Shown: positions 1,517-59,711 of the stretch, piece by piece | Position numbering within the stretch: the first letter of the stretch is position 1 | Layout of the letters: every line of letters begins with the position of its first letter | Assembly: GCA_026399435.1 (NCBI GenBank) | Contig: JAPLQX010000035.1 | Span: forward strand, 1-64,000 | Reading direction: 5' to 3' | From: Rhodocyclales bacterium | GTDB lineage: Bacteria; Pseudomonadota; Gammaproteobacteria; Burkholderiales; Rhodocyclaceae | Length of the DNA stretch: 64,000 nt | The notes under the pieces: model-generated | Told to the model about the DNA's origin: nothing | Database searches by the model: none | Seen by the model: only the letters and a program-made list of their open reading frames with translations | Made by a program: the position numbers and the translations under genes

Positions 1517-3139
1517 CTATTGCAGGATCATCTTTTCGTCCACCTGATCAATCTGCCCCGGATCGAGAAACTGCTCTGCATACCGCCGATAGACACCCTG
1601 TCTCACGAAAACATCGAACAGGTCGGGATCGATATGGCCGCCCTTCTTGAAATTGGCCATGATGCCCATGGCCTGTGACAGCTTCATGCCATGTTTGTAG
1701 GGGCGGTCGCGGGCCGTCAGCGCCTCGAAGATGTCGGCGATGCCCATCATCCTTGCCTGCACGGACATCTGCTCGCGGGTGAGGCCCTTGGGATAGCCTT
1801 TGCCATCCATGCGTTCGTGATGACCGCCGGCGTACTCAGGTACCCGGGTCAGGTGTTTCGGCCACGGCAGTTGCTCCAGCATCTTGATGGTGGCAACGAT
1901 ATGGTGATTGATGATGTCGCGTTCCTTCAGCGTCAGGGTGCCGGCGCGAATGGTCAAATTTTCAACCTCGTCGGCGGTGAGGAATTCGGTTTCGACGGCA
2001 TCGACATTGCGCCACTTTCGCCCGCTGCCGATGTCGCGCACGCGCTGCAGATCTGAGTCTTTCATCGCCTCGCCGCCGACATTGGTCTTGCGCAGGAACT
2101 CGCGATCCTCGTCAAGTGCTCGGACTTCCTCGTGGTATTGCTGCCAGATCGCCTCATCCGCCGCGGCATCGCCGCTGCCGCGCAGCGCCAGCTGCTTGCG
2201 CAGAGCATGAATCTCGGCGTCGCGCTTGAGCACTTCAAACCGGGTATCGATCAGATGTATGCGATCGAAGAGGGTTTGCAGCTTGGTGGCCTTGTCGACC
2301 ACATGAACCGGCGTAGTGACCTTGCCGCAATCGTGCAGGAGGCCGGCGATCTTGAGTTCGTAGCGATCGCGCTCGTCCATCCTGAAAGAAGCCAACGGTC
2401 CTTCCTGCGTCGCATCTGCGGCCTCGGCCAGCATCATGGTCAGGGCCGGCACCCGTTGGCAGTGACCGCCGGTATAGGGCGACTTCTCGTCAATTGCCAG
2501 GTTGATCAGGCTGATGAAGGACTCGAAAAGCTCTTCGAGTTGTGTGATCAGCAAACGATTGGTCAGGGCGATGGCCGCCTGCGAGGCAAGCGATTCGGCA
2601 AGACTCTGGTCGGCCGATGAAAACGCTTTTACCTGATGGTCCAGCGGATCGATGGCGTTGATAAGTTGCAGCACGCCAATGATTTCTCCCTCATGGTTCT
2701 TCATCGGGACCGTGAGGAAAGACTGCGAGCGATAGCCGGTACGCTGATCGAAACTTCGGGTGCCGGAGAAGTCGAAGCCCGCCTCGGTATAGGCGTCGGC
2801 AATATTGACCGTCTTGTCATGAATGGCAGCATAGGCCGCCACCATCGAGTCATTGGCTTCGCCCCGGTCATTCTTCAACGGCAAATTCGGAAAGTTGATG
2901 GCGTTGCCGGTGGTGCCGCCCATCGCGATGTGCAACGAGTCGGTGCGCAGAATCTCGAAGCGCAGCGCCTGGCCATCCTCCGTCATGCGATACAGCGTTC
3001 CGCCGTCGGCATGCGTAATAGTCTTGGCCGCGACGAGGATGGACTCAAGCAGCCGATCGATGTCACGCTCCTTGGAGAGCGCAGCACCAATGGCATTCAG
3101 TTGTTCGAGACGGCGAAACAAATCGCTGGAACTATCCAT
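1517..3139 (-). CDS. GAF domain - HD-GYP cyclic-di-GMP phosphodiesterase
   Basis: 540 aa. A GAF domain covers about residues 10-185 (D-Q-R-T-G-Y-R motif, then LTVPMKNHEGEIIGVLQLI). An HD-GYP domain follows from about residue 215. The metal-binding HD is in GLLHDCGKVTTP, and the family signature HHERMDGKGYP is intact, so c-di-GMP hydrolysis is expected from family knowledge. An insertion rich in charged residues (about 270-370) separates the HD and GYP halves. It is the last gene of the signalling operon, 9 bases after the GAF-ATPase gene, and both share the GAF architecture. Inferred role: a c-di-GMP-lowering output controlled by a small ligand or partner bound at the GAF domain. Confidence 0.9.
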   Translation of the reverse strand: MDSSSDLFRRLEQLNAIGAALSKERDIDRLLESILVAAKTITHADGGTLYRMTEDGQALRFEILRTDSLHIAMGGTTGNAINFPNLPLKNDRGEANDSMVAAYAAIHDKTVNIADAYTEAGFDFSGTRSFDQRTGYRSQSFLTVPMKNHEGEIIGVLQLINAIDPLDHQVKAFSSADQSLAESLASQAAIALTNRLLITQLEELFESFISLINLAIDEKSPYTGGHCQRVPALTMMLAEAADATQEGPLASFRMDERDRYELKIAGLLHDCGKVTTPVHVVDKATKLQTLFDRIHLIDTRFEVLKRDAEIHALRKQLALRGSGDAAADEAIWQQYHEEVRALDEDREFLRKTNVGGEAMKDSDLQRVRDIGSGRKWRNVDAVETEFLTADEVENLTIRAGTLTLKERDIINHHIVATIKMLEQLPWPKHLTRVPEYAGGHHERMDGKGYPKGLTREQMSVQARMMGIADIFEALTARDRPYKHGMKLSQAMGIMANFKKGGHIDPDLFDVFVRQGVYRRYAEQFLDPGQIDQVDEKMILQ

Positions 3140-3148
3140 GCCCGTTCC

Positions 3149-5527
3149 CTACTTGATGCAGACAGCCCGCACCTGCTTGAGATCGGTCACCCCTTGCAAG
3201 GACTTTTCCAGACCATCCATCTTCAGGGTCAGCATGCCATCCTCCAGCGCCTGAGCGACCAGTTGCACGACGCGGGCGCGCTCCACGATCAACTTCTTCT
3301 GCGGCTCGGTGCCTATCATCAACTCATGCAAGCCGACACGTCCCTTGTAACCGCTGCCGCCACAGGCATCGCAACCCTTGGCGCGGGTGAACACGAACTT
3401 GCCATCCTTGCCATAGTCCTTGAGCAGGCGCGCTTCGGTCTCTGCGTAAGCGGCCTTCATATCCTTCTTGAACGCCGTGGTATTTTCGAGTTCGCTGCAA
3501 TACTCTTTCATGAACAGCCTGATTTCCTCGGCGTCCGGCGTATAGCTCTCCTTGCATTTGCAAAGCCGCTTGGCCAGGCGCTGCGCCAGAATGCCGAGCA
3601 GCGCATCGGAGAAGTTGAAGGGGTCCATGCCCATGTCGAGCAGGCGAATGATGGATTCTGGCGCGCTGTTGGTGTGCAGGGTGGCAAACACCAGGTGGCC
3701 GGTAAGCGATGCCTCGATGCCGATGCCGGTGGTTTCGGCATCGCGCATTTCGCCCACCATGATGATGTCCGGATCGGCGCGCAGGAAGGCCTTCATCACC
3801 ATTGGAAAGTCCATTACCTTCTTGTTGACCTGGACCTGGCGCAGGCCCTTCTGTGTGATTTCCACCGGATCTTCGGCTGTCCAGATCTTGGTATCCACGG
3901 TGTTCAGATAGCCCAGCACCGAGTGCAGCGTGGTGGTCTTGCCGGAACCGGTCGGGCCGCAGACGAAGAACAGTCCATAAGGCTTGGAGATGGTCGCCTT
4001 GAGCTTGGTCAGATTGGTCGGCAGCACACCCAGCTTGTCCAGCGGGATCGGTTCGCCGCCGGCAAGGATACGCATGACGACGTCTTCGACACCACCGGAA
4101 GTTGGAATCGTCGCCACCCGCAGTTCGATATCCAGCGGGCCGTATTTCTTGAACTTGATCTTGCCGTCCTGCGGCTTGCGGCGCTCCGCAATATCCAGGT
4201 CGCACATGATCTTGAGACGCGCCACCATCGCATTGCGGTAGCTGGCCGGCACCTCGATGTACTTCTGCAGCGAACCATCGCGGCGCAGGCGGACCAGCAC
4301 CTTGTCCTTGCCAAGGCCCGGCTCGATATGAATATCGGATGCACCCATCTGATAGGCATCGATAATGATCTTGTTGACCAGTTTCACCAGTTCGTTGTCG
4401 GCTGCCGCGGAGATGTCGTCGGTGGCACTGCCGTCACCCTCGCCTTCGTCCTGATCGAGAGTCGACAACAGGTCGCCAACCGAGCTGTCGTCAGTGAAGC
4501 CGGGAACTCCGGCAGCGCCGAACAACTGATCAATGGTCTGCACGAACTCGTGGTTGGTGGTGACCCGATAGGCGACCTTCGCCCGCGGGAAGACATTGTT
4601 GACTACACGCGATCCCTTGACTTGCTCAGGATCCATGCAGACCACCATCACGCCTTCAGGCCCCTCTTCCACGGGAGCCCATTTGGCCTGCTCAAGAAAA
4701 TCCCGCTTGAGGTTCTTCAGCAAGTCTGCGGGTTTGATTCGGTCGGGCCGGAACGGTTCGTAAGGCACATTGAAGAACTTGCCCAAGGCAACGCCCAGAG
4801 CCTGATGCTTGACCTGAAACTCGTTGACCAGAACTTCTTCGATGTCGAGATTCTTCCGGCGTGCGGTCCGCGTCGCCAGCTCCAGCTCCTGCGGCGAAAT
4901 GACGGCGTCCGACACCAGGAAGTCGTACTTGGTCTTGACGGCCTGCGCCGGTTTGCTGCGCTGGTTGAACGCAATCGCCAGCGTCTCTGACAGCCCCTTG
5001 ACGCCTTCCTGCGCAATGGCGGCAAAAGGAGCCCCCGCCTTGTTGTTGATGATCTGGACGACGCCGAGCAGCTCGCCGCTCTGCGCATCGACGATCGGCG
5101 CCACCAGCATCTGCTTGGTGCGATAACCGGTCCGCTTGTCGACCTCCTGCAGGAAGCGCAGTGATGGATTGATCGCCTTGAGCTCCGCCTCGTCATAGAC
5201 GTCGCGGATATTCACGGTCTTTTTGGCCAGCGCAACATGGCCGGCGATACTCTGGTCGGCGATCGGCAGGCGCAGATCCTTGAAGGAATTCAGACCCGTC
5301 TTGACCTTGGAAACAATGGAAGCCTTGTCCTCACCGATGGAGTAGATCGTCAGGCGATCGGCATTGAACAAGCTGCAGATATCGCCGGACAGTTCCAGCA
5401 TGATTTCGTCTATGTTGGACGTGGCATGAACCTTGTTGGTAACGACCTGAAGGTTCTTGAAAAAGGCCAGGCGGCTGTCCACATCGGACGCAGCGGCATC
5501 GGCCGGTGCAGCAGGAACGGCACTCAT
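3149..5527 (-). CDS. GAF domain fused to GspE/PilB-family secretion ATPase
   Basis: 792 aa. A GAF domain lies at about residues 25-190 (D-K-R-T-G-Y-R-T). A GspE N-terminal-type domain follows (about 200-340), then the ATPase core: Walker A GPTGSGKTTTLHS, Asp box around TAEDPVEI, Walker B region IIMVGEMRDAET, His box TGHLVFATLHTNSAP. The C-terminal zinc-type motif is C-x-C (LCKCKE) instead of the usual C-x-x-C, with an intact CDAC further on. Members of this family power type II secretion or type IV pilus assembly, but this gene has no pilus or secretion gene beside it. It sits between cyclic-nucleotide and c-di-GMP signalling genes and overlaps the upstream gene by 4 bases (ATGA). What it drives is unknown. 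Confidence 0.88.
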   Translation of the reverse strand: MSAVPAAPADAAASDVDSRLAFFKNLQVVTNKVHATSNIDEIMLELSGDICSLFNADRLTIYSIGEDKASIVSKVKTGLNSFKDLRLPIADQSIAGHVALAKKTVNIRDVYDEAELKAINPSLRFLQEVDKRTGYRTKQMLVAPIVDAQSGELLGVVQIINNKAGAPFAAIAQEGVKGLSETLAIAFNQRSKPAQAVKTKYDFLVSDAVISPQELELATRTARRKNLDIEEVLVNEFQVKHQALGVALGKFFNVPYEPFRPDRIKPADLLKNLKRDFLEQAKWAPVEEGPEGVMVVCMDPEQVKGSRVVNNVFPRAKVAYRVTTNHEFVQTIDQLFGAAGVPGFTDDSSVGDLLSTLDQDEGEGDGSATDDISAAADNELVKLVNKIIIDAYQMGASDIHIEPGLGKDKVLVRLRRDGSLQKYIEVPASYRNAMVARLKIMCDLDIAERRKPQDGKIKFKKYGPLDIELRVATIPTSGGVEDVVMRILAGGEPIPLDKLGVLPTNLTKLKATISKPYGLFFVCGPTGSGKTTTLHSVLGYLNTVDTKIWTAEDPVEITQKGLRQVQVNKKVMDFPMVMKAFLRADPDIIMVGEMRDAETTGIGIEASLTGHLVFATLHTNSAPESIIRLLDMGMDPFNFSDALLGILAQRLAKRLCKCKESYTPDAEEIRLFMKEYCSELENTTAFKKDMKAAYAETEARLLKDYGKDGKFVFTRAKGCDACGGSGYKGRVGLHELMIGTEPQKKLIVERARVVQLVAQALEDGMLTLKMDGLEKSLQGVTDLKQVRAVCIK

Positions 5528-6591
5528 TCGACTGACTCCATGGCACCAGCGCGCGCCCTCATGCCGCCGTCAAGCAGGGCTGCATGAAATCCACGCTGGG
5601 AAAGCAAAAATGCGGCAGCGGAACTGCGACGTCCCGTCTGACAATAAACAATGTATTCCTTTGCCGGATCGAGCGCCGCCGAGGCCTGACGAATATCGTT
5701 GAGCGGGATGTTGATAGCGCCCGGATAGCCGTCACTTTGATATTCGGCCGGGAAACGTACATCAATCCATGTCGCGCCATCAGCAACCCGCTGCTCGGCC
5801 TCGTCGCCGGTCACGCTCTGCAGCAGGGGTGCGCGCAGCAGCTGGTTGAAATCCTGCTTCGACAAGCGCAGCAGCACGCCATCCGTGTTCATCGTCACGG
5901 TCGCATTGCGCACCGTATCGGCCACCAGGGCCTCTTCGCCGAAAGCATCACCTTCCTTGAGTTCCGCCAGCTGCACGGGAGACCCGGCGACGAGCCGGGA
6001 AACCTTGCAGCGCCCGCGTTCGATCAGGTAGTAGTAATCGCCGGGGTCACCCTGCCTGATGATGGTCTGGCCACGCTTCGCCGGGACGCGGCTGAACTTG
6101 GCCAACAGCGATTGGATATGGGCCGGAGGCAGGGAAGCGAACACACCGACGGTAATGTTGTCCACGCCGAGCATTCCGGACATCATGCGCCAGTCGGTTT
6201 GATCATCGCTGCCCTGCTCACTGTCGCCGGGGACGGCCAACTGGTTCCAGGTCACGACGATATCCAGCAGGTCTTCCTCCAGGCTGAGCAGTTCGACATC
6301 GGTGATAGCCTTGCTCGACACCGGCGTCTTCCCCAGGCGCGACACCGGCTCTGTAGCAAGATCATGGCCGCCGACCAGAACGCGCGAAGTACCATCCGGC
6401 ATGCTCGCCAGAAGCTGTCCCCGGACCAGATAGACTACCTGGCCGCCCCAGTCGTTGACAGCAAACGGGTCGGTGCCGCGCGTGAAGGAGTGCATTCGGC
6501 AACGCGGCAACAACTCACGCAGGCCCCCGCTGACCAGCAACGTCAGAGGTTGCAGGCGGGCCAGCAGGTCGATGCTCACCGGTTCAGCCAT
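5524..6591 (-). CDS. Cyclic nucleotide-binding domain - rhodanese domain protein
   Basis: 355 aa. The N-terminal ~120 residues look like a degenerate cNMP-binding barrel (VYLVRGQLLASMPDGTSRVL). A second, better-preserved barrel covers about 150-260: RQGDPGDYYYLIERGRCKV, then KEGDAFGEEALVADTVRNAT, which is the phosphate-binding-cassette region. The C-terminal ~90 residues are a rhodanese domain with an active-site loop CQTGRRSS containing the catalytic cysteine, and WIDVRFPAEY before it. There is no helix-turn-helix, so it is not a Crp-like transcription factor. In context it is a candidate cAMP reader, sitting 3 bases after the phosphodiesterase-like gene and about 0.9 kb after the cyclase. 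What the rhodanese cysteine acts on cannot be told from sequence. Confidence 0.85.
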   Translation of the reverse strand: MAEPVSIDLLARLQPLTLLVSGGLRELLPRCRMHSFTRGTDPFAVNDWGGQVVYLVRGQLLASMPDGTSRVLVGGHDLATEPVSRLGKTPVSSKAITDVELLSLEEDLLDIVVTWNQLAVPGDSEQGSDDQTDWRMMSGMLGVDNITVGVFASLPPAHIQSLLAKFSRVPAKRGQTIIRQGDPGDYYYLIERGRCKVSRLVAGSPVQLAELKEGDAFGEEALVADTVRNATVTMNTDGVLLRLSKQDFNQLLRAPLLQSVTGDEAEQRVADGATWIDVRFPAEYQSDGYPGAINIPLNDIRQASAALDPAKEYIVYCQTGRRSSAAAFLLSQRGFHAALLDGGMRARAGAMESVE

Positions 6592-6593
6592 GA

Positions 6594-7361
6594 TCAGATC
6601 TCGAACAGCTGATTGTTCTGCAGCATGCCCGGACGGAATTCGCCAATGCAGTCTTCAATCTCCTGCATGGTCAATTCGATCTGTCCGGGTTTCAGGTGAG
6701 TGATGAAGACTTCGGCATCGCGCTGCAAATTTGTCAGTTCCTCCAGCAGCATGCTCGGGCACAAATGCAGGGATGCCACAGCCAGCTGCTTTTCCCGATC
6801 GGAGAATGCACACTCGATGATCAGGTAGCGCAGATTGCGAATACTGTTGATGGCCTGCCACAGATCGGGACATGGCCCGGTGTCACCGGTAAATACCAGA
6901 CTGGCCTGCCCGGAATCAAGCTGATAGCCGACCGCCGGCACCGTGTGATTCGCCGGCAGCGGAATCACCTTGCGGCCATCGAGGTCCACCGCTTCACCCA
7001 CGCGTATCGGAGAAAAACGGAGAAAAGGCTTCTCCGCCGTCGGTATTTGACTGAAGTCGGGCCAGATGGCCCAGTTGAAGATATGGGCGCGAATGATTTC
7101 AAGTGTCGCCTCGGTCGCATGGACTATCAGCGGGCGATTGCGCATGTCACCCACGGTATCGACCATGAAGGGCAGACAGGCGACGTGGTCCAGATGCGAG
7201 TGCGTAATGAAGACGTGATCAATCTGGACAAGTTCAGCGATCGCCAGATCCCCGACTCCTGTTCCGGCGTCGATCAGAATGTCGTTGTCGACCAACAACG
7301 ACGTGGTCCGCAGATGTCGTCCGCCGATTCCGCCACTACAACCGAGAATGCGTACCTTCAT
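6594..7361 (-). CDS. Metallo-beta-lactamase-fold cyclic-nucleotide phosphodiesterase-like protein
   Basis: 255 aa from the ATG at 7361 (MKVRILGCSGG, the start typical of this family); the frame stays open to another ATG at 7406 with no better ribosome-binding site. The metal motif THSHLDHVA matches the H-x-H-L-D-H core of class II cyclic-nucleotide phosphodiesterases. Later metal ligands are plausible at NHTVPA, FTGDTGPCPD and FITHLKPGQ. Predicted cytoplasmic hydrolase of cAMP or cGMP. It lies between a cyclase and a cNMP-binding protein, so it is the likely eraser of the cAMP signal made next door. Substrate is inferred from context; a general MBL hydrolase cannot be excluded. Confidence 0.75.
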   Translation of the reverse strand: MKVRILGCSGGIGGRHLRTTSLLVDNDILIDAGTGVGDLAIAELVQIDHVFITHSHLDHVACLPFMVDTVGDMRNRPLIVHATEATLEIIRAHIFNWAIWPDFSQIPTAEKPFLRFSPIRVGEAVDLDGRKVIPLPANHTVPAVGYQLDSGQASLVFTGDTGPCPDLWQAINSIRNLRYLIIECAFSDREKQLAVASLHLCPSMLLEELTNLQRDAEVFITHLKPGQIELTMQEIEDCIGEFRPGMLQNNQLFEI

Positions 7362-7482
7362 TTTGTGGTGGCCGCCTGTGCCGGGCCGCCCCAAGCCGGC
7401 GGCCATTCAACAACCGGAAACCACGCAAGCGGTTGAACCGGTTTCACCCTCTTGCTTGGAAAGAAGGATTGAAGGTATTTTC

Positions 7483-9708
7483 TCATTTTGTTTCAAAAAC
7501 GGTGACGCCGTCCCAATTTTCTCCGGGCGGCTCCTTGCGCAGGTGCTCAACGCGCTTGACGTAAAGATCATAGAGATAGCGCGGCTTGATGCGCTGAAGA
7601 TTCATCAGCGTCACTTCCGACTTGTCCCAGTCCTGCGCCCGGTAGGCTCGCAAGGCCTGGTTCCAGAGCTTGATCTCGTCCATTTCCTCTTGCGAGACCT
7701 TGCCCTCTTCGCCAACCGGTTCATAAATGCCGACCGGGTCTGCCTTGCCCTTGACGCGCACGCGATCCAGTTCGCGGAAGACGAATTCCTTCTTCACCAA
7801 CTCGCGGGTGCCTTCGCCAACGATCATGCCAACTCCGTACTGCTTGGTAATGCCCTCAAGACGCGAGCCGAGGTTGACCGCGTCGCCCATCACCGTGTAG
7901 GACTGGCGCACCGGCGATCCCATATCGCCGACGGTCATCGGACCCGTATTCACGCCGACACCGATCTTGAGTTCAGGCCAGCCGCGGGCCACCAGGTCCT
8001 TGTTCAGTTCGTGCAGCGCGACATGCATTTCAAGCCCCGTGAGGACGGCATTCTTCGCATGTTCGGGATCGTCGACCGGCGCACCCCAGAAGGCCATGAT
8101 GGCGTCGCCGATGTATTTGTCCAGCGTCCCCCTGTGCTTGCGCACGATCAGGGTCATGGCGCCGAGATACTGGTTCATCAGGGTGGCCAACTCGTTTGGT
8201 TCCAGCCCTTCGGAAATCGTGGTGAATCCGCGTATATCGGAAAACAGCACGGTGAGTTCGGCCTTGCGTCCCGCCATGCTGTAGTTCTCAGGGTCGCGGC
8301 TCATCTCCTCAACCAGTTCCGGCGGCACGTACTGGCCGAACAATCCGGTCAACTGGCGCTTGGTTCGCGACTCGACGAAGTAGCCCCATGACATGTTCAT
8401 CGCATACAGAAGCACGATCGCGATCATGCCGTTGGCCAGCGGCAGAACGACATTGGAGACGTGCCAGAAGCTGAAATTCACGCTGAGCAGCAGCAGCATC
8501 ACGATGACGCCGACGATCGTCGCGCGCAGCGGCGACAGCATCGGCAGCAGGAAAGCCATCACGGCACCCGCAAGCAGCACCAGCATCACATCGGCGCCGA
8601 GAATATAGGGTGGCTTGTGCTTCACCACGCCATCCAGCATGCCCGCAATCAGATTGGCGTGGATTTCCACCCCGGGATATGCAGCCCCCACCGGCGTCGC
8701 CCGCAAGTCCATGAGTCCCGGCGCCGTGGTGCCGACGACCATCACGCGCCCGGCGAGTTTTTCCTTGGGAACCCGATCGTTGAGGACGTCGGTGATCGAA
8801 ATGAAAGGAAAGCTTCCCTGATAGCCGCGATAGGGAATCAGCGTCGCCGCATTTTCGTCCACCGGAATGCGCATCACCCCGCCACCGGCCGCCTTCAGAT
8901 CCAGCCACTCCATTCCCGCATAAGAGCCCGGCGAGCTTTCCGGATAGCCCGGAGTAATCGGTGGATTGCCAAGCAGATTACGCACCATCGCCAGAGCGAG
9001 GGATTCGTAGTACTGTCCTTTGTATTCGACCAGCAGGGGCACTCGACGCGAGATGCCATCCGGGTCTACCAGCGGGTTGAAATGCCCTGCACCAGCCGCC
9101 GCCTTCTGGAATTCGGGCAGATTGCCGCCATGACTGACCCATTGTGTAAAGCCAATATTGCGGCCACTAAAGGTGCCGGCCGGGAATACCGGTTCCGGAG
9201 CGGCGCCTGAACTTACGCCGCCTTCCTTGCTGGAAAAGTAGTAGCCGAGAATGACCGGTCGGTTCTTCAACGCTGCGGCGAAGCGCGCATCGTGATCAAG
9301 CTGGGGCCGCAACTCCCGCAGCGTCGATTGGAAGCCCGTGACATCCTTCAATTCCTTCTTCGCCAGGGACTCCAGCGACTTGAGGCCGGAACTTTCGTCA
9401 GGCTCGGCAAAGACCACGTCGAAGCCGACCAATTTGACTCCGTACTGATCGAACAGCTTCGTCATCAAGGTCGCCAACTTGTCGCGACCCCACGGCCACC
9501 GCCCCTGCTCGGCAAGCGACTTTTCGTCGATGTCGAGAATCACCACGCGCTCGTCAAGGCCTTGCGGCATCGTCAGGCGCACTTTCACGTCATAGATGAG
9601 CGCGTCCAGTGTATTGATGAAAGGAATCTGGTAAATGCGCGCCGAATGGCCGAGCAGGACCAGAAGAATCAGAAATCCAAGTACGTAACGGGGAAGATAC
9701 TGTTTCAA
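7483..9708 (-). CDS. CHASE2-domain class III adenylate cyclase
   Basis: 741 aa. An N-terminal membrane helix (YVLGFLILLVLLGHSARIY) is followed by a periplasmic CHASE2 sensor to about residue 350 (ERVVILDIDEKSLAEQGRWPW, the typical CHASE2 opening). About three membrane helices come next, then a class III cyclase domain (about 470-650). Both metal aspartates are present (LFSDIRGFT and KYIGDAIMAFWG), as are the adenine-type lysine and aspartate (DKYIGD; YTVMGDAVN) and the N/R transition-state residues (NLGSRLE). It should therefore be active and make cAMP. The C-terminal ~70 residues look TPR-like. Third from the promoter-proximal kinase gene in the operon, with 30 bases after the FHA gene. A 121-base gap to the phosphodiesterase start shows no clear terminator. 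Confidence 0.93.
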   Translation of the reverse strand: MKQYLPRYVLGFLILLVLLGHSARIYQIPFINTLDALIYDVKVRLTMPQGLDERVVILDIDEKSLAEQGRWPWGRDKLATLMTKLFDQYGVKLVGFDVVFAEPDESSGLKSLESLAKKELKDVTGFQSTLRELRPQLDHDARFAAALKNRPVILGYYFSSKEGGVSSGAAPEPVFPAGTFSGRNIGFTQWVSHGGNLPEFQKAAAGAGHFNPLVDPDGISRRVPLLVEYKGQYYESLALAMVRNLLGNPPITPGYPESSPGSYAGMEWLDLKAAGGGVMRIPVDENAATLIPYRGYQGSFPFISITDVLNDRVPKEKLAGRVMVVGTTAPGLMDLRATPVGAAYPGVEIHANLIAGMLDGVVKHKPPYILGADVMLVLLAGAVMAFLLPMLSPLRATIVGVIVMLLLLSVNFSFWHVSNVVLPLANGMIAIVLLYAMNMSWGYFVESRTKRQLTGLFGQYVPPELVEEMSRDPENYSMAGRKAELTVLFSDIRGFTTISEGLEPNELATLMNQYLGAMTLIVRKHRGTLDKYIGDAIMAFWGAPVDDPEHAKNAVLTGLEMHVALHELNKDLVARGWPELKIGVGVNTGPMTVGDMGSPVRQSYTVMGDAVNLGSRLEGITKQYGVGMIVGEGTRELVKKEFVFRELDRVRVKGKADPVGIYEPVGEEGKVSQEEMDEIKLWNQALRAYRAQDWDKSEVTLMNLQRIKPRYLYDLYVKRVEHLRKEPPGENWDGVTVFETK

Positions 9709-9738
9709 GAGATCTCCGTGATTGCGTTTTCTTCTGCC

Positions 9739-10500
9739 TCAGCTCTTCAGGAAGAATTCCATCTTGGTGCCGGCCAATTCGATTACGTCGTGGTCCGCCA
9801 ACTGATGCGCCTGAGTCCCGATCGCCGAGCCATTGACCGCCGGAAAGTTGGCACCTTCCACATGGGTAATGAAGTAGCCATGCGGACGACGCGCGATGAC
9901 CGCCACCTGGACGCCGGGCTTTCCCAACGTGGTAAGCGTCTTGGTCAACTCCATCTCCTTGCCGGCATTGCCGCCGGAAAGTATCTGTATTGCCCCCAAG
10001 GGCAGCGCAGGCGCCGGCGCCGCCGCTGGCGGTTGTTGCGGGGCCATGCCCGGTGAGGTTGATAGGTGAGCCGGCGCGGCAGGACTCGGAGCCGCCGCAG
10101 GAGCAGCGGGCGCAGCGGAAGCGGAGGGGGCAGGTTGAGTCGCTGGCTTTTGCGCGGCACCCGGGCGCAGGATCATGGTTTTCTCGAAATCCGCACTTGA
10201 CGTCTGCTGTGGAACCTCGCTGACATACTTCAGCTTGTACTTGCCCAGTTCAACCGTGTCGCCATTCTGCAGGAAGTGCTTCTTGACCGACTGGCCGTTG
10301 ACGAAGGTGCCGTTGGTGCTGCCCAAATCTTCCAGAAAGGAATCATTGAGGATCGTGATCACCACCGCGTGTTCGCCGGAAATCGCCAGATTGTCGATCT
10401 GGATGTCATTGTGCGGCTTGCGACCGATCGTGGTGCGCTCCTTGGTCAAGGGAATCTCCTTGAGCATCGTGGTTTCCATGCTGAGTATGAGCTTAGCCAT
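9739..10500 (-). CDS. FHA-domain protein with Ala/Pro linker and second degenerate FHA-like domain
   Basis: 253 aa, no signal peptide or membrane helix. The N-terminal FHA domain (about 20-95) has all the phosphothreonine-binding landmarks: IGRKPHNDI, SGEHAVV, and LGSTNGTFVNG. A linker of about 50 residues is almost only Ala and Pro. The last ~85 residues (AIQILSGGNAGKEMEL, then VNGSAIG) keep an FHA-like beta outline but lack the R/S/H binding residues. Predicted reader of proteins phosphorylated by the operon's Ser/Thr kinase, possibly an adaptor that brings a phosphoprotein to a second partner. It follows the PP2C gene by 33 bases. Confidence 0.9.
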   Translation of the reverse strand: MAKLILSMETTMLKEIPLTKERTTIGRKPHNDIQIDNLAISGEHAVVITILNDSFLEDLGSTNGTFVNGQSVKKHFLQNGDTVELGKYKLKYVSEVPQQTSSADFEKTMILRPGAAQKPATQPAPSASAAPAAPAAAPSPAAPAHLSTSPGMAPQQPPAAAPAPALPLGAIQILSGGNAGKEMELTKTLTTLGKPGVQVAVIARRPHGYFITHVEGANFPAVNGSAIGTQAHQLADHDVIELAGTKMEFFLKS

Positions 10501-10533
10501 TGTTGTCGTCCTTCGAGGTCACTGAGCGCTGCA

Positions 10534-11355
10534 TTACTTGAACCAAGCCAGGAAACGAGCCCACCAGCCGCGCGCGGCCGGGTATTCGCCCTTCACCTTG
10601 ACCAGGATTACCGAAACATTGTCGCGGCCACCGTTGTCGTTGGCCATCTGCACCAACTGCATCGCACACAACTCCAGATTGGCCGACAGAGCGCCCAGAG
10701 TCATGGCTATTTCGTCGTCCTCAACCATGTCGTTGAGGCCGTCAGAACAGAACAAATAGACGTCACCGGGCAATACCTCATGGTCGTGTATCTCTGCCTC
10801 TACTTCAGGATCAATGCCGACGGCACGGGTGACCAGATTCTTGTTCTGCGAATGGCGTGCCTGCTCGAGCGTGATGATGCCGGCGTCGATCTGCTCCTGC
10901 AGCAGTGAATGATCGCGCGTGACCTGCTCAAACGTCTCGCCTCGCATACGGTAAAGCCGGGAATCACCGATGTGGCCGACAGTGACGCGGTTATCGTGAA
11001 AAATGCCGACCACCAGTGTCGTCCCCATTCCGGCGCACTGCGGCTCGTTCAGAGCCTTCTGATAAATCGCGGCATTGACGTGGGCCATTTCCTTCTGGAG
11101 CGAGACATGCGCCCAGGACTTGCCAGAAGGCTCCTTGCTGCTCGGTTCACGCTCGATAAAGGCCTTTTCCAGTTCAGTGCCAAGCAGCGACGTGGCTATG
11201 CCGCTGGCCACCTCGCCTGCGTTGTAGCCGCCCATGCCGTCGGCCAGCACGGCAAACCCGCGCAGCGGATTGGCCATGACCGAGTCTTCGTTGTTCGAGC
11301 GCACCATACCCGGATCGCTGCGGGTGACAATCTCCAGAACGGCAGTCATATCCAT
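10534..11355 (-). CDS. PP2C-family Ser/Thr protein phosphatase
   Basis: 273 aa from the ATG at 11355, chosen because a GAGGA ribosome-binding site precedes it by 8 bases; the frame also extends to 11370. Metal-binding motifs of the PPM family are present: RSNNEDSV near the start, VLADGMGGYNAGE, VGHIGDSRLY, CSDGLNDMVED and GGRDNVSVI. The size equals the stand-alone bacterial PP2C (Stp1/PrpC type). It begins 11 bases after the kinase gene, so the kinase and its likely cognate phosphatase are co-translated. Predicted to reverse kinase-dependent phosphorylation in the cytoplasm. Confidence 0.95.
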   Translation of the reverse strand: MDMTAVLEIVTRSDPGMVRSNNEDSVMANPLRGFAVLADGMGGYNAGEVASGIATSLLGTELEKAFIEREPSSKEPSGKSWAHVSLQKEMAHVNAAIYQKALNEPQCAGMGTTLVVGIFHDNRVTVGHIGDSRLYRMRGETFEQVTRDHSLLQEQIDAGIITLEQARHSQNKNLVTRAVGIDPEVEAEIHDHEVLPGDVYLFCSDGLNDMVEDDEIAMTLGALSANLELCAMQLVQMANDNGGRDNVSVILVKVKGEYPAARGWWARFLAWFK

Positions 11356-11366
11356 GGATCGGGTCC

Positions 11367-14036
11367 TCAAATGCTGATATCGACGCCGGAGTCATCGGCG
11401 GCGGCACCGGTGCCGGTGCTGTTCATCGCCATGCAGGTGCGAATATCCCGGGCGAATTCCGCACCGGTCTGATAGCGCGTGTCGGGATCCTTGGTCATCG
11501 CCTTGTCGATGATCGCCAGCAGGCAGTCCGGCAGATCGGGATTGATGCTGCGAATGTCCGGATGCGGCTCATTCGCGATGCGGAACATCAGTTGCGCCAT
11601 GGAATCGCCCTCGAAAGGCAGCTTGCCGCAGGACATCTGGTACAACATTACACCCAGCGAAAACAGGTCCGAACGGCCGTCGATCTTCTTGCCGGCCAGT
11701 TGCTCCGGCGACATGTAGCTCGGCGTGCCCAGCACCATACCTGTCTTGGTCTTTGACGAATCCGTAATCCGCGCGATGCCGAAGTCGGTCACCTTGACCT
11801 GGTCGGACTCCGGCTCGTACATGATGTTCGCCGGCTTGATATCGCGATGCACGACATTGTTTTCGTGCGCGTAGGACAGCGCATCGGCAACCCGTGCGAC
11901 GATGCTCATGACGCGCGGCAAAGGCATCAGATTTCCCGGCTTGGAATACGGCACCAGATCCTTGCCCTTGAGAAACTCCATCGCGATGTAGGCCAGATCG
12001 TGCTCCTCGCCGGCATCGAACATGGTGACGATGTTGGCGTGATTGAGGCGCCCGGCGGTTTCGGCCTCGCGGAAGAATCTTTCCTTGACCTCGACCAGTT
12101 CGTCGGCCTCGAACTCCTGCGACAGCGCCATGGTCTTGATCGCCACGATACGATTGATCTTCGGATCGCGGCCCAGATAGACCACACCCATCGCCCCCTT
12201 GCCCAGTTCCTTCTCGATTTCGTAGCGCCCCAGCATCGGCTTTTCCACATTGCCTGCCGTGTCAATCAGGCTGGCGTTGCTGCGCCCTCCGCTGCCGCCG
12301 CCGAGAATCACGGTTTCCGAAAGCTGCTTGGCGCGGTTCACGCGGGTTTCGATATCGCGAAACTTCGGGTTGAAATCGACGATGTAGCGGAACACCGCCT
12401 CGGCCTTGTTGAACTGGCGTTTGCGTTCGAAATCGAGCGCCAGGTTGTACATGTTCTCCATCAACTGCTCGTCCATCGGGCACTTGCGGAATTTGTCGAA
12501 GGCCATGTCGAGTTGGCCCTGGCCCTGGAAGGCGAGACCCAGCATGCGGTTGGATTCCGCCGAATCGGCATCGGACTTTTCCTTGCCGCGTTCGGAAACC
12601 AGAAAGCGCTTGGTGGTCAGCAGCAAATGGCCGACCAGCAGCAGCGTTGCCGGGACCATCAACTGAATCCACATCAGTTGTGTCGTCATCAGCACAAAAT
12701 GAATGGTGATCAATGCCACCAGCAGGCCCGCGGTAATCCCTGCGGCCATGCCGGCCTTGATCCGTGGCAGCAGGCCGATCAGGTAAGCCGCGATCAGCAG
12801 GAATACCAGCCTTTCGACCCAGATGCCCCACGTCGGCGCGACGAAGAAGTGCTCCGACAACAGGCTGGACACCGCATGCGCCTGCATCAGCACGGCAGGC
12901 ATGGCCGGGTTGATCGGGGTGACGAACACGCTGCCTACCGAAGAAGACGTCGGCCCGATCAGGACGATCTTGTCGCGGTACTTCTCGTAGGGAATCTTGC
13001 CGCTCTTGACGTCGAAGAACGAATCGATCTGGAAGGCCGGGCTGCCGTCACGGTCCTTGTAGTAGAAAGTCAGCATCCGTGTATCGACGTCGGTGCCGAT
13101 CTTGAGCTTGCCCAGCTTGACCGATTCGCCGGCCGTCACCTGTATGTCCGCCACGGTCAGGTTGTGGCTCTTCGCCGCCACCAGCAGGGACAGGGAAGGA
13201 TAGGCCTGATCGAAGTGTGCCAGCACCAGGGGCTCGGTGCGGATCGCGCCATCCACGTCCGCGATCACGTTCAAATGACCGATGGCAGTCGCCACCTTGC
13301 CCAGCGGCTCGATCACGCCCGCATCGACGCCGAGAGTCGGCCAGGGCGGCGCCTCTGCGGCGCCCGAAAGCTTCACCGCATTCTTCTTCACGTAATCGGG
13401 CAGTTCCTTGTCCGGACGTCCGCGCGGCTCGCCCAGCACGAACAGCATCGGCAACGCGACGTTGCCCGCCTTGGCGAAGGCGTCGGCCAGGCGGCGGTCG
13501 GTATTCAGCTTCTGGTCCGCCTCGAGCAGTATCGACTCGATCTGCGGGCAGGACGAAGGCGCAGGAGGCGCGGGCGGAGCAACTTCGGCGGGCGCCGGAG
13601 CGGGAACTGCTGCAGTTTGACCGGGCGCAGGCGCTACAGGCGCTGCGGATGTTGCGGCGACGGCCACCGTCGAAGGCAAGGTCACGCCGCAGGTTTCAAT
13701 CAACTTGTTGATGTACACCAAACCCTGATCGCGCTGCGGCTCGGAGTAGAAGACGGTGGTCGCGATCACCTTGGCTTTGGCGGTAGCCAGCTTGTCGACC
13801 ATGTCCGCCATGATCTCGCGCGACCAGGGCCAGCGACCGATGTTGTCAAGGCTGGGCTTGTCGATCGCAATGACTGCAACCTTGTCCGAGGGGGTGCGCG
13901 ACGCGGCTGCCACACCCATGTCATAGGCCTTGCGCTCCAGGCCCTGCAACAACTCGCCATTGCCCAGGATCAGCACGACAACGCTGACCGCAACACCGAA
14001 GAACCAGTCACTCTTCCAGAAGTCTGCCTTCTTCAT
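11367..14036 (-). CDS. CHASE2-domain Ser/Thr protein kinase with TPR-like segment
   Basis: 889 aa from the ATG at 14036 (MKKADFWKSDWFFGV); the longer frame to 14087 adds residues with no family look. A membrane helix precedes a CHASE2 sensor (DKVAVIAIDKPSLDNIGRWP) carrying an unusual Ala/Pro-rich insertion of about 45 residues near residue 125-170. About three membrane helices end near residue 490. A TPR-like stretch follows (MLGLAFQGQGQLDMAFDKF), then a C-terminal Hanks-type kinase: GKGAMGVVYLG, AIK, HRDIKPANIM, DFGIA, GTPSYMSPEQ. All catalytic residues are present. First gene of the operon, downstream of a good promoter. Its CHASE2 resembles that of the operon's cyclase in layout, suggesting the two respond to related periplasmic cues (inference). 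Confidence 0.94.
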   Translation of the reverse strand: MKKADFWKSDWFFGVAVSVVVLILGNGELLQGLERKAYDMGVAAASRTPSDKVAVIAIDKPSLDNIGRWPWSREIMADMVDKLATAKAKVIATTVFYSEPQRDQGLVYINKLIETCGVTLPSTVAVAATSAAPVAPAPGQTAAVPAPAPAEVAPPAPPAPSSCPQIESILLEADQKLNTDRRLADAFAKAGNVALPMLFVLGEPRGRPDKELPDYVKKNAVKLSGAAEAPPWPTLGVDAGVIEPLGKVATAIGHLNVIADVDGAIRTEPLVLAHFDQAYPSLSLLVAAKSHNLTVADIQVTAGESVKLGKLKIGTDVDTRMLTFYYKDRDGSPAFQIDSFFDVKSGKIPYEKYRDKIVLIGPTSSSVGSVFVTPINPAMPAVLMQAHAVSSLLSEHFFVAPTWGIWVERLVFLLIAAYLIGLLPRIKAGMAAGITAGLLVALITIHFVLMTTQLMWIQLMVPATLLLVGHLLLTTKRFLVSERGKEKSDADSAESNRMLGLAFQGQGQLDMAFDKFRKCPMDEQLMENMYNLALDFERKRQFNKAEAVFRYIVDFNPKFRDIETRVNRAKQLSETVILGGGSGGRSNASLIDTAGNVEKPMLGRYEIEKELGKGAMGVVYLGRDPKINRIVAIKTMALSQEFEADELVEVKERFFREAETAGRLNHANIVTMFDAGEEHDLAYIAMEFLKGKDLVPYSKPGNLMPLPRVMSIVARVADALSYAHENNVVHRDIKPANIMYEPESDQVKVTDFGIARITDSSKTKTGMVLGTPSYMSPEQLAGKKIDGRSDLFSLGVMLYQMSCGKLPFEGDSMAQLMFRIANEPHPDIRSINPDLPDCLLAIIDKAMTKDPDTRYQTGAEFARDIRTCMAMNSTGTGAAADDSGVDISI

Positions 14037-14294: not shown

Positions 14295-15191
14295 CTACTT
14301 CAGCAGCGCCTTGAGCAGCTTGGCCATTTCCGACGGATTGCGCGTCACCGTGAAGCCGCATTCCTCCATGATCGCGAGCTTCGCGTCGGCCGTATCGGCA
14401 CCGCCGGAAATCAGCGCGCCGGCATGTCCCATGCGCTTGCCGGCCGGCGCCGTAACCCCGGCGATAAAACCGACAATGGGCTTCTTCATGTTGGCCTTGC
14501 ACCACACCGCCGCTTCGGCTTCATCCGGGCCGCCGATTTCGCCGATCATGATCACCGCATCGGTGTCCGGATCGTCATTGAAGGCGCGCATGATGTCGAT
14601 ATGCTTGAGGCCGTTGATCGGATCGCCGCCGATGCCCACGGCGGTGGATTGGCCCAGCCCGATTTCGGTGAGCTGCGCCACGGCTTCGTAAGTCAGCGTG
14701 CCCGAGCGCGAAACCACGCCGATGCGCCCCTTGCGGTGAATGTGGCCGGGCATGATGCCGATCTTGATTTCGTCCGGCGTGATGAGGCCCGGGCAATTGG
14801 GGCCGAGCAGCAGCGTCTTCTTGCCGCCCTTGGCTTCCTTCGCCTTCATCTTGTTGCGCACGATCAGCATGTCCCGCACCGGGATGCCTTCGGTGATGCA
14901 GATCGCCAGGTCGAGGTCGGCTTCGCAGGCTTCCCAGATCGCGTCGGCGGCACCGGCGGGCGGCACGTAGATCACGGAAACCGTGGCGCCGGTCTGCGCC
15001 TTGGCTTCCTTGACCGAGGCGAAGATCGGGATGTCGAAAATCTTCTCGCCGGCCTTCTTCGGATTCACGCCGGCGACGAAGCAATTCTTGCCGTTGGCGT
15101 ATTCTTGGCACTTTTCGGTGTGAAACTGGCCCGTCTTCCCGGTGATGCCCTGGGTGATGACTTTGGTGTCTTTGTTGATCAAGATGGACAT
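14295..15191 (-). CDS. sucD: Succinate-CoA ligase (ADP-forming) subunit alpha
   Basis: 298 aa. Forms succinyl-CoA synthetase with SucC in the TCA cycle, making succinate and ATP from succinyl-CoA. The N-terminal CoA-binding Rossmann fold has the [13 protein letters not shown] loop. The phosphohistidine region is [13 protein letters not shown], with [14 protein letters not shown] and the conserved [10 protein letters not shown] at the C-terminal part (the H in this motif is the phosphorylated histidine). Starts 9 bases after sucC, so it is co-transcribed with it. Ordinary length for the family. Confidence 0.97.
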
Positions 15192-15200
15192 AGTGGTTCC

Positions 15201-16361
15201 TTACTTGACGGCGGCGACAATTTTCGTCGCAGCGTCGGCCATGGTGTCGGCGGAAATGATCGGCAGGCCGGACTCCTTGAGGATCTTCTTGCCGAGGTCT
15301 TCGTTGGTACCCTTCATGCGCACCACCAGCGGCACGCTGATGTGGGTTTCCTTGGCCGCGGCAACAACGCCCGCGGCAATCGTGTCGCATTTCATGATGC
15401 CGCCGAAAATATTGACCAGAATGCCCTTGACCTTGGGATTCTTCAGCATGATCTTGAAGGCTTCGGTGACCTTCTCGGTGGTCGCGCCACCACCGACGTC
15501 GAGGAAGTTGGCCGGCTCGGCGCCGAACAGCTTGATGGTATCCATGGTCGCCATCGCCAGACCCGCGCCATTCACCAGACAGCCGATGTTGCCATCGAGC
15601 GAGATGTAAGCCAGATCATGTTTCGACGCCTCGATTTCATCGGCGTCCTCTTCATCGAGGTCGCGGTAGGCAACGATCTCCGGGTGACGGAACAGCGAGT
15701 TGGAGTCGAAGTTGAACTTGGCGTCGAGCGCCTTGATGCCGCCATTACCCTCGAGGATCAGCGGATTGATTTCGGCCAGGGACGCATCGGTTTCCATGTA
15801 GCAGGTGTAGAGCTTCTTGAAGGTATCCACTGCCTGCGCCAGTGAGCCGGCCGGCACGCCGATGCCCCTGGCCAGTTCGGTCGCCTGCGCATCGGTAAGC
15901 CCGGCCAGCGGATCGACGAAGACCTTGATGATCTTCTCCGGAGTCTTGTGCGCGACTTCCTCGATGTCCATGCCGCCCTCCGAGGAGGCCATCATGGCGA
16001 CCTTCTGCGTGGCGCGGTCGGTCAACGCGGCAACGTAGTATTCCTTCTTGATGTCGGCGCCTTCCTCGATCAGCAGACGCCGCACTTTCTGGCCCTCGGG
16101 GCCGGTCTGGTGCGTCGTGAGCTGCATGCCAAGAATGGCTTTCGCATAAATTCTGAGTTCGTCGGGATTCTTGGCAACCTTTACGCCACCTCCCTTGCCG
16201 CGTCCGCCGGCATGGATCTGGGCCTTGACCACCCAAACTTTGCCACCGAGCGTCTCTGCCGCCTTCACCGCCTCGTCGACGGAGAAACAGGGGATGCCGC
16301 GCGGGGTAGTCACGCCGAATTTTTTCAGGATTTCCTTGCCCTGATATTCGTGGATCTTCAT
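15201..16361 (-). CDS. sucC: Succinate-CoA ligase (ADP-forming) subunit beta
   Basis: 386 aa, starting at the ATG at 16361 ([17 protein letters not shown], the invariant SucC start) with AAGGAAG as ribosome-binding site. The open frame extends upstream to 16550, but that extension has no family similarity. ATP-grasp domain with [17 protein letters not shown]-terminal ligase domain with [11 protein letters not shown] and [11 protein letters not shown]. It supplies the nucleotide-binding half of succinyl-CoA synthetase. In many Betaproteobacteria sucCD are paired as here. Confidence 0.97.
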
Positions 16362-58023: not shown

Positions 58024-58041
58024 GCGACCGGATTGCCTGAC

Positions 58042-59595: not shown

Positions 59596-59647
59596 CACCA
59601 TGGCACAAGGCGAAATTTGAAGTACCTGAATCAATAAAATCATTGAC

Positions 59648-59675
59648 TTGCATCGTAAACATAATGTGTTATGCT
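59648..59675 (+). promoter_or_regulatory. Candidate promoter before the secretin gene
   Basis: -35 TTGCAT (59648-59653), 16-base spacer, -10 TATGCT (59670-59675) with a TG extension (TGT before it). It sits in a short AT-rich patch of the 116-base gap between mshM and mshL, about 36 bases before the TTG start. Confidence 0.45.
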
Positions 59676-59711
59676 AATTCTTATAGCTAAAGTTCTAATC
59701 GGGGGATTGGT

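Follow-up and report, generated by a model that had tools for sequence, protein, structure and literature searches.

Signaling through Ser/Thr kinases, through cAMP and through c-di-GMP has mostly been studied as separate systems. The actinobacterial proteins GarA and OdhI act as FHA phospho-switches whose phosphorylated site lies N-terminal in an ETTSVF-like context, the PpkA-PppA-Fha1 pathway is linked to the type VI secretion system (T6SS), and DgcB, an FHA-GGDEF protein, has a role in c-di-GMP signaling. PpkA, PppA and Fha1 are a kinase, a PP2C-type phosphatase and an FHA protein, respectively, according to an excerpt of PMC6213207. On the cAMP side, CyaD1, CyaD2 and CyaK of Sinorhizobium meliloti are CHASE2 adenylate/guanylate cyclases that answer an outside signal (excerpt of PMC13001267), and in CyaB2 the GAFb domain contacts cAMP through R291, T293, I308, D356 and N359 (excerpt of PMC4411481).

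The locus described here lies in a 64,000-nt stretch of DNA (the window, in whose coordinates all positions are given). Its eight ORFs occupy 1517-14036, all on the minus strand, and the ORF list together with Pfam searches bore out the initial annotation, which had described co-directional genes with these domains; domains were called at Pfam gathering cut-offs, which all eight ORFs exceed for their assigned domains, and family scores were taken from NCBIfam equivalog models relative to their cut-offs. The first gene encodes a CHASE2-transmembrane-Ser/Thr kinase of 889 aa (P0001, 11367..14036; CHASE2 E 9.2e-52, Pkinase E 2e-55) and overlaps by 4 b the gene for a PP2C-type phosphatase (P0002, 10534..11370; Pfam PP2C; Stp1/IreP family 242.1 bits, cut-off 230). 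After 33 b comes a 253-aa FHA protein (P0003, 9739..10500) composed of a GarA/OdhI-like FHA domain (residues 1-97), a Pro/Ala linker and a C-terminal beta domain (168-252), and after a further 30 b a CHASE2 class III adenylate cyclase of 741 aa (P0004, 7483..9708; Pfam CHASE2 and Guanylate_cyc). An MBL-fold class II phosphodiesterase-like enzyme follows (P0005, 6594..7406; Lactamase_B_2/PDEase_II, the latter at 47.1 bits with a cut-off of 23.7), the gap being 76 b when measured to the ORF-list start and longer if a conserved MKVRILG start is used. Two bases further on is the gene for a protein with a cyclic-nucleotide-binding domain and a rhodanese domain (P0006, the cNMP protein, 5524..6591; Pfam cNMP_binding and Rhodanese), which overlaps by 4 b that of a 792-aa GspE/PilB-type ATPase with GAF and MshEN domains (P0007, 3149..5527; Pfam GAF, MshEN and T2SSE); 9 b beyond it lies the gene for a 540-aa GAF-HD-GYP protein, a predicted c-di-GMP phosphodiesterase (P0008, 1517..3139; Pfam GAF and HD).

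The initial annotation left unmentioned the MshEN domain, the FHA protein's conserved C-terminal domain, and sucCD just upstream. The latter two genes (sucD and sucC, 14295..16550, minus strand) lie outside the module, and one or both were matched at 59/140 loci, many of which are cut by contig ends. A terminator-like hairpin behind sucD was seen by eye and was not listed by the terminator scan, which found no excess of terminator-like sites (8 vs 11.0 in shuffles); the promoter scan likewise found no excess (4 vs 4.5 in shuffles), and one of its four sites, 14116-14087, falls a short way before the kinase gene, where at this rate it may be due to chance. Rfam and tRNA searches gave no hits.

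Orthologs were aligned from matches above a set coverage and score and free of internal stops, the window itself included. The catalytic residues, reported earlier as intact in the kinase, phosphatase, cyclase and HD-GYP protein, are so in the window and, with few exceptions, in the orthologs: kinase K634, HRD and DFG are kept in 110/111, PP2C D136 in 140/140, and cyclase D491, K531, D535, N612 and R616 each in 115/116, while H269 and D270 of the HD-GYP protein are kept in 174/174 and its D445, G448, Y449 and P450 in 169, 174, 173 and 170 of 174, respectively. The cyclase carries the two metal Asp residues, the Lys/Thr base pair and the Asn/Arg transition-state residues of a class III adenylate cyclase, and the HD-GYP protein carries the HD and HHExxDGxGYP motifs from which its c-di-GMP phosphodiesterase role is predicted. 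The gene identities, the intact enzymes and a set for writing, erasing and reading phosphorylation beside such a set for cAMP, all put forward in the initial annotation, are supported.

In the FHA protein, the phosphothreonine pocket (G26, R27, S41, H44 and N63) is invariant in 144/144 sequences, including the Arg, Ser and Asn of a GarA/OdhI-type switch, and the FHA domain is nearest in fold to GarA/OdhI in a structure comparison whose rows span residues 1-110. The C-terminal domain is confidently modeled as a beta domain, with pLDDT values of 84-98 for successive ten-residue blocks starting at residue 161. The OdhI equivalog score of 56.4 bits lies below the cut-off of 200, and the protein is predicted to work like GarA/OdhI without being a member of that family. 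Such switches also conserve a Thr that can be phosphorylated and lies beyond the FHA fold, and here T108 in the linker (codon 10177..10179, minus strand, motif F-E-K-T-M-I-L-R-P), the predicted phospho-switch, is Thr in 142/144 aligned sequences. A matching motif, S-E-T-V-I-L-G-G, is present in the juxtamembrane linker of the kinase, where T575 (codon 12312..12314, minus strand), the predicted site of autophosphorylation and FHA docking, is Thr in 107/111; in both proteins the surrounding linker is variable. The only two losses of T108, one of them to Ser, coincide with losses of T575 and come from different families (Fisher p 0.001, n=110, kinship ignored), and T575 is lost alone at two loci, L105 and L187. 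The kinase motif [ST]-h-h-[LF], judged by eye as Ser or Thr, two hydrophobic residues and then L or F, is kept in other lineages at 10/10 loci with an FHA gene adjacent to the kinase vs 1/8 loci with none adjacent (Fisher p 0.00025, kinship ignored, five of the eight FHA-less loci belonging to one genus). L247 and L259, whose contigs end close to the kinase gene, are not among these 18 loci. Ser stands in place of Thr in four of the ten kept motifs; the motif is kept at L260 with no FHA gene adjacent, and at L263 the Thr is present without the rest of the motif. Since T575 and T108 stand out of variable linkers and are lost together, phosphothreonine docking of the GarA/OdhI-like FHA protein is predicted, and the pattern suggests that the kinase docks its FHA partner via one conserved threonine.

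Conservation of the gene order had been named as the check on the whole proposal, with rare linkage as the contrary outcome, and the linkage proved to be kept. The genes present keep one order and one strand in 80/80 related loci, which are the best 80 of 376 and hence biased to close relatives. Azospira oryzae DSM 21223 (locus L057) is one strain with the complete operon. Within the window's GTDB order (Burkholderiales; hereafter the order, and the class Gammaproteobacteria the class), the sample comprised 87 positive genomes including the window's own; 60 of the other 86, selected by hand on quality and contig size, were fetched and 26 were dropped. Among these 60 loci, 48 show four or more of the genes in order and 28 have the full set or all but the cNMP gene, which is missing from 21 otherwise complete operons. 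The eight-gene linkage exceeds chance, and many betaproteobacteria carry a phosphorylation switch joined to a cAMP switch in a fixed gene order. In the rest of the class (57 regions from 56 genomes, 15 of the regions being shorter than 15 kb at contig ends), kinase-PP2C-FHA genes lie near an HD-GYP gene in 14/57 regions with their parts rearranged, and a CHASE2 cyclase is also present in all 14. In 16/20 genomes whose kinase is at least 50% identical, the cyclase lay on the same contig as the kinase and no more than about 10 kb away. That kinase and cyclase are linked again, differently arranged, in the class's other orders speaks for real coupling, and the differing orientations argue against passive inheritance of one operon. 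A BarA/GacS-like hybrid kinase was seen between the FHA and cyclase genes at four loci in other orders of the class (four of five scanned proteins of about 900 aa, with ORFs of that size at L083 and L121 left out).

Of the idea of two parallel circuits, the linkage of both sets stood, and their being equal or obligate did not. The 20 kinase regions fetched from other lineages contained PP2C in 17 and FHA in 10, with no full-length cyclase, MBL, GspE or HD-GYP ortholog in these fetched regions, and the cNMP gene is, as noted, often absent. The places examined in other lineages, and those examined for kinases and cyclases outside the operons, were hand-picked, 20 regions each. Nor is membership obligate, the kinase or the cyclase lying outside some operons with an ortholog elsewhere in the genome. 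For the kinase this was found in 2/12 genomes whose operon is partial or lacks the kinase (G389 and G517, both full-length), with no full-length ortholog in the places fetched for the other ten, and for the full-length cyclase in 6/13 genomes checked at selected places; G435 has a CHASE2-less kinase relative elsewhere, and these three genomes rule out loss of the kinase as the reading of every kinase-less operon. Pkinase matches were present in 20/20 genomes examined, some with and some without the operon kinase, and a class III cyclase in 18/19, G433 having none. Six loci of the form pp2c-fha-mbl-gspE-hdgyp among the 60 keep MBL and GspE without the cyclase, so the MBL gene is not strictly tied to a linked cyclase, and a strict one-to-one pairing of the two is ruled out; a cyclase-MBL-GspE-HD-GYP subset also occurs. 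It might be that two or three separate modules (kinase-PP2C-FHA; CHASE2 cyclase-MBL-cNMP; GAF-ATPase/GAF-HD-GYP) share the operon for joint expression only, with no biochemical cross-talk, as the triad standing by itself in other lineages and the existence of these subsets would allow. We judge this unlikely, given that kinase, cyclase and HD-GYP genes are linked in different orientations in the class's other orders and that the gene order is strict within the window's order.

The MBL protein has the fold, an invariant HxHxDH motif (117/117) and the PDEase_II score of a class II cAMP phosphodiesterase, an activity that is predicted for it. That it is instead an RNA or phosphonate-type phosphodiesterase with no role in cAMP appears quite unlikely: yeast PDE1, YhfI and RNase Z tie in the fold comparison, but PDEase_II is above its Pfam cut-off, yeast PDE1 is the top PDB match by sequence (1.4e-6), and cAMP/cGMP are the preferred substrates of YhfI, whose fold is just as close (excerpt of PMC9117128). 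In the cNMP protein, phosphate-cassette residues E219 (80/82) and R228 (82/82) and rhodanese C317 (81/82) are kept.

The GAF domain of the ATPase (4943..5527, minus strand), the predicted cAMP receptor, finds its best PDB match in the CyaB2 tandem GAF 1ykd (E 1.4e-27), and the cAMP contacts of CyaB2 GAFb all have equivalents in it: R58 in 111/111, T60 in 109/111 (Ser in 2), V/I75 in 107/111, D130 in 111/111 and T133, a Thr at the position of CyaB2 N359, in 110/111. The GAF of the HD-GYP protein lacks the complete set, with G/A in place of the Arg in 173/174 and T48 in 165/174, D131 in 172/174 and T134 in 141/174; as this paralogue in the same operon has lost one contact, conservation of the contacts in the ATPase GAF is not automatic. 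The MshEN domain of the ATPase is a Pfam match at 4511..4774 (minus strand). Its c-di-GMP motif, two copies of RLGxx..G..LxxxLxxQ, was found in residues 190-300 of 0/111 orthologs even with the relaxed pattern of PMC5013675, against two matches in the window's other ATPase, and its absence makes c-di-GMP sensing by the ATPase unlikely. With near-invariant CyaB2-like contacts and no MshEN motif, a cAMP-gated GspE/PilB-type motor is predicted, and the sequences suggest direct control of a pilus-type motor ATPase by cAMP. Alternatively, the GAF may bind another small molecule or only dimerize, the ATPase being a constitutive accessory pilus or secretion motor and cAMP acting only via the cNMP-rhodanese protein and CRP-type regulators elsewhere. 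Several ligands are known for GAF domains (excerpt of PMC4411481), and the NKFDE motif, in which single changes abolish or greatly reduce binding by PDE GAFs (excerpt of PMC11977230), is incomplete here, N161 (111/111) and F168 (110/111) being kept and the K and D positions changed. Against this, the equivalents of the five contacts are near-invariant while the HD-GYP GAF lost one, and we find the alternative rather doubtful; in the narrower reading that we prefer, the ATPase GAF would bind cAMP.

The ATPase itself has the T2SSE domain, Walker A and B motifs, His box and CxC/CxxC of PilB/GspE proteins (Walker A K530 in 109/111, E593 in 108/111, H611 in 107/111, C719 in 105/111), with equivalog scores below the cut-offs for both PilB (453 vs 675.65) and GspE (405.4 vs 630.25), and Pfam found no gspF/pilC-like or pilin gene among the eight. 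At E<=1e-160 it was present in 11/74 genomes, 5/17 in the order and 6/57 in the rest of the class (41-51% identity), and in 0/14 of the rearranged kinase-cyclase-HD-GYP regions. Being found in few genomes and in no rearranged region, it does not serve as a constant output of the module.

Our explanation as a whole, which we regard as evenly balanced between right and wrong, is that the eight genes together make up a single conserved module for envelope sensing, with a phosphorylation and a cAMP arm. In the first arm, a periplasmic signal received by CHASE2 would activate the kinase, which would autophosphorylate at Thr575 beside the membrane; phospho-Thr575 would dock the FHA protein, the kinase would phosphorylate the docked protein at Thr108, and the FHA domain would then bind its own or another subunit's phosphothreonine and be released in a closed or oligomeric form, by analogy with GarA/OdhI, with PP2C resetting both threonine sites. 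In the second, another CHASE2 sensor would drive the adenylate cyclase and the MBL enzyme would hydrolyze cAMP, which would be read by the ATPase GAF, the cNMP-rhodanese protein and possibly the HD-GYP GAF; the HD-GYP protein would lower c-di-GMP. As its putative output, the module would control a machine of the type IV pilus/type II secretion family and thus surface behavior. More tentatively still, in betaproteobacteria the motor may have exchanged the c-di-GMP input of MshEN for a cAMP input through a CyaB2-type GAF, accompanied by enzymes that make, destroy and read cAMP and by a kinase-PP2C-FHA switch with matching docking motifs, such that envelope signals would reach one machine through phosphorylation, cAMP and c-di-GMP breakdown together. 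Points against the explanation are the incomplete NKFDE motif, the Arg loss in the HD-GYP GAF, the frequent absence of the cNMP gene, the MBL and ATPase genes in cyclase-less operons, the RNase Z tie, the solitary T575 losses at L105 and L187, the exceptions L260 and L263, the ten genomes that gave no full-length kinase ortholog in the places fetched, the lack of a gspF/pilC-like or pilin gene in the operon and the narrow spread of the ATPase. A widespread fixed-order operon joining all three kinds of signaling, together with the rearranged kinase-cyclase linkage elsewhere, offers a tractable natural case of integration and two sharp predictions, namely that cAMP binds directly to a GspE/PilB-type motor and that the FHA protein docks on the kinase by phosphothreonine via one residue. 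To our knowledge either would, if true, be unprecedented in this part of the bacterial tree, and no description of either was present among the matches listed from openly licensed PMC papers.

The operon shares with PknB/PknG-GarA and OdhI of Actinobacteria a Hanks kinase, a PP2C phosphatase and a small FHA protein in which a Thr beyond the FHA fold is conserved. It differs in having a CHASE2 rather than a PASTA sensor, the Thr C-terminal to the FHA domain, an extra C-terminal beta domain, a matching juxtamembrane Thr motif in the kinase, and cAMP genes alongside. PpkA, PppA and Fha1 likewise comprise kinase, PP2C and FHA protein, whereas 0/8 genes here are T6SS structural by Pfam; the T6SS FHA model (TagH/Fha1) gave 47.5 bits vs a cut-off of 120.25, and this score and the gene content rule out a T6SS-type pathway. 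Bdellovibrio DgcB has an FHA domain with its own phosphorylated N-terminal peptide (from PDB titles), but there the FHA is fused to a cyclase and here it is a separate protein. The S. meliloti CyaD1/CyaD2/CyaK-Clr pathway also has a CHASE2 cyclase; its output is a CRP-family regulator, whereas the linked candidate receivers of the operon are the ATPase GAF, the cNMP-rhodanese protein and possibly the HD-GYP GAF. By sequence, the closest solved GAFs are those of Anabaena CyaB2 and mammalian PDE2/5/10 (CyaB2, PDE10A and PDE2A for the ATPase GAF; PDE5A and CyaB2 for the HD-GYP GAF), which regulate a cyclase or a phosphodiesterase, whereas the operon's GAF would regulate a GspE/PilB-class motor. 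The last gene has the architecture of the Persephonella GAF-HD-GYP protein PmGH (4mcw; GAF match 3.9e-8), and differs in its operon context and in the about 170 residues between its HD and GYP motifs, longer than usual. With c-di-GMP-binding ATPases of the MshE/PilB type the operon ATPase shares the MshEN-ATPase architecture, and it differs from them in lacking the 24-residue c-di-GMP motif (0/111) and in carrying a GAF domain in front.

The eight genes described in the initial annotation as one operon do lie together at 1517-14036 on the minus strand, neighbours being separated by short gaps or overlapping by 4 bases, and in a Pfam scan of the eight proteins all domains exceeded their own cut-offs. 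They encode, in order, a CHASE2 Ser/Thr kinase, a PP2C phosphatase, an FHA protein, a CHASE2 cyclase, an MBL protein, a cNMP-binding protein, a GspE-type ATPase with a GAF domain and a GAF-HD-GYP protein. The annotated ATG at 14036 is the sensible choice for the kinase start; the ORF list also holds a TTG 51 bases earlier. The sucC and sucD genes are located directly upstream on the same strand, and 59 of 140 related loci gave matches to them, with contig ends cutting many of these loci short. Downstream, an open frame on the minus strand (2-1246) runs off the window edge and by eye resembles a run of TPR repeats with a glycosyltransferase-41-like domain behind it. The gene order, whose conservation the annotation had proposed to check, proved stable: in a scan with the FHA protein, the operon genes present kept one relative order on one strand in all of the best 80 of 376 relatives, the closest named ones being Sulfuritalea and other Rhodocyclales, which makes this group the most probable source of the window. 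Enough flank was available for 46 of these best 80 loci; 37 had all eight genes, three lacked only the cNMP gene and six held other subsets. An even draw of 200 genomes at the order level gave 87 with the HD-GYP protein at E<=1e-100, the own genome included, and loci were fetched from 60 of the other 86. All eight genes were present in 7/60, seven genes (cNMP gene missing) in 21/60 and a PP2C-FHA-MBL-GspE-HD-GYP subset in 6/60; overall, 48 loci had at least four operon genes in order and 12 had fewer, three of those 12 being cut by contig ends.

At the class level, where an even draw of 369 genomes contained 57 with the HD-GYP protein (including the own genome) and 57 regions were fetched from the other 56, the operon parts were rearranged. 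Kinase-PP2C-FHA was found inside the region in 14/57, together with the cyclase in all 14 and the cNMP gene in nine, and a linked MBL or GspE gene in none of these 14. Outside them, one locus (L103, genome G121) held GspE, MBL and HD-GYP together with a partial cyclase. Four loci from further orders of this class have a BarA/GacS-like hybrid histidine kinase (HAMP-HisKA-HATPase-REC-Hpt) positioned between their FHA and cyclase genes (L087:6443-9100, L089:8395-11067, L104:12494-15247, L125:8751-11735), accompanied in L087 by an RlmD-like methyltransferase. Co-occurrence was determined in 74 selected genomes, of which 44 contain the HD-GYP protein and 30 do not. At E<=1e-100, 31 of them had the kinase, 20 with at least 50% identity over at least 580 residues; in those 20 genomes, FHA was always within 2 kb of the kinase, and the cyclase was no more than about 10 kb away in 16, at another place in two and without a hit at the threshold in two. 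At set thresholds, MBL was present in 42/74, the cNMP protein in 43/74 and the GAF-ATPase in 11/74 (5/17 genomes of the order and, at 41-51% identity, 6/57 in the rest of the class). We favour a reading in which the operon would form an integrated envelope module passing two inputs to a surface-machine output; its weakest links are how the two arms would be coupled and what the output would be. The main rival is that the arms share expression without cross-talk. The kinase-cyclase-HD-GYP linkage recurs in a second arrangement, which favours coupling without proving it. The kinase was further found at E<=1e-150 in 66 of 398 phylum genomes, 55 of them in a single family. Among 20 regions picked from this search across several families, PP2C adjoined the kinase in 17, FHA was present in 10, and none of the 20 contained a full-length cyclase, MBL, GspE or HD-GYP ortholog; therefore, the kinase-PP2C-FHA triad also exists without linked cAMP genes, which speaks against the annotated picture of two equal parallel circuits for Ser/Thr phosphorylation and cAMP.

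The kinase membrane-to-catalytic linker carries a motif, S-E-T-V-I-L-G-G, conspicuous amid a variable stretch, with Thr575 kept as T in 107/111, and the FHA linker likewise carries F-E-K-T-M-[VI]-[LI]-R-P, with Thr108 kept in 142/144. At +3, which FHA domains read, each motif carries a hydrophobic residue, and the phosphothreonine pocket of FHA is invariant (144/144); the nearest folds to this domain are those of OdhI, GarA and further FHA domains. Thr108 is lost in only two loci, from different families (L146, to Ser; L161, to Ala), both also without the kinase Thr, and the kinase Thr is lost alone in L105 and L187 (co-loss, Fisher p 0.001 over 110 loci with both proteins). In other lineages, the kinase motif (T or S) was kept in 10/10 loci where an FHA gene is adjacent and in 1/8 where none is (p 0.00025, counts entered by hand), a comparison with few independent events since 5/8 FHA-less loci belong to one genus; in L263, one of the seven FHA-less loci without the motif, the Thr is present. 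From sequence, phosphorylated Thr575 would dock FHA, and Thr108 would act as the switch. Docking has a precedent in a mycobacterial kinase-FHA pair (PMC4238996), but that pair binds through activation-loop sites and sets none for a site next to the membrane. Thr108 was also kept in the thirteen kinase-less FHA loci looked up, so another kinase may serve FHA there; nine of these loci come from genomes that were scanned, and each such genome has other Pkinase genes. The C-terminal beta domain of the FHA protein (residues 168-252, window 9745-9999) is highly conserved, with GKPG replacing the FHA GR motif, and is possibly a degenerate second FHA domain.

Selected kinase places were inspected in 12 genomes with kinase-less or partial operons, and three had the kinase or a relative outside the operon: G389 and G517 carry a full-length ortholog (59-60% identity), and G435 (L206) carries a CHASE2-less relative (347-aa frame, 60% identity over the catalytic part), which seems to have dropped the sensor. 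The latter keeps the motif as PETIML. Full-length cyclase orthologs (44-51%) were located outside the operon in 6/13 inspected genomes (G389, G517, G435, G489, G480 and G420). Some operon gaps are thus moves and not losses; others may be true losses.

In the cAMP arm, the cyclase has a complete set of class III residues, and MBL keeps HxHxDH in 117/117, with yeast PDE1, YhfI and RNase Z tied as its nearest folds. The phosphate cassette of the cNMP protein retains Glu in 80/82 and Arg in 82/82. The ATPase GAF is closest to the CyaB2 tandem GAF (E 1.4e-27) and also resembles PDE10A and PDE2A GAFs. The cAMP contacts of CyaB2 listed in PMC4411481 (R291, T293, I308, D356, N359) align with R58 (111/111), T60 (109/111, S in two), V75 (V or I, 107/111), D130 (111/111) and T133 (110/111). 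The NKFDE motif of the ATPase GAF is incomplete, which counts against cAMP binding, and mutations in this motif impair binding in PDEs (PMC11977230). The HD-GYP-protein GAF, closest to PDE5A, has lost the Arg contact; of the two, the ATPase is thus the better candidate for a cAMP receptor. The c-di-GMP motif of PMC5013675 is missing from the ATPase MshEN region in 111/111 sequences. On the same contig, the window at 56584-64000 (+) holds a sigma-54 response regulator, an ExeA-like AAA_22 ATPase, a secretin, a TPR protein and an MshEN-T2SSE ATPase, together an MSHA/type IV pilus-like cluster; its T2SSE ATPase has two matches to a relaxed c-di-GMP motif, 29 residues apart. The own genome has eight T2SSE-family matches; two are neighbours on contig C26, an arrangement typical of PilT/PilU.

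Among the matches listed for combinations of these parts in openly licensed PMC papers, judged by title and start of abstract, no paper describing the operon was found; PMC4324302 concerns an unrelated CHASE2/PAS sensor in Burkholderia. Further background came from PMC13001267, PMC6213207, PMC9293780 and PMC9117128. Every part of the operon is of a known kind; what looks new is that they are combined in a fixed way, that kinase and FHA protein carry paired threonine motifs and that a motor bears a GAF of the CyaB2 type.
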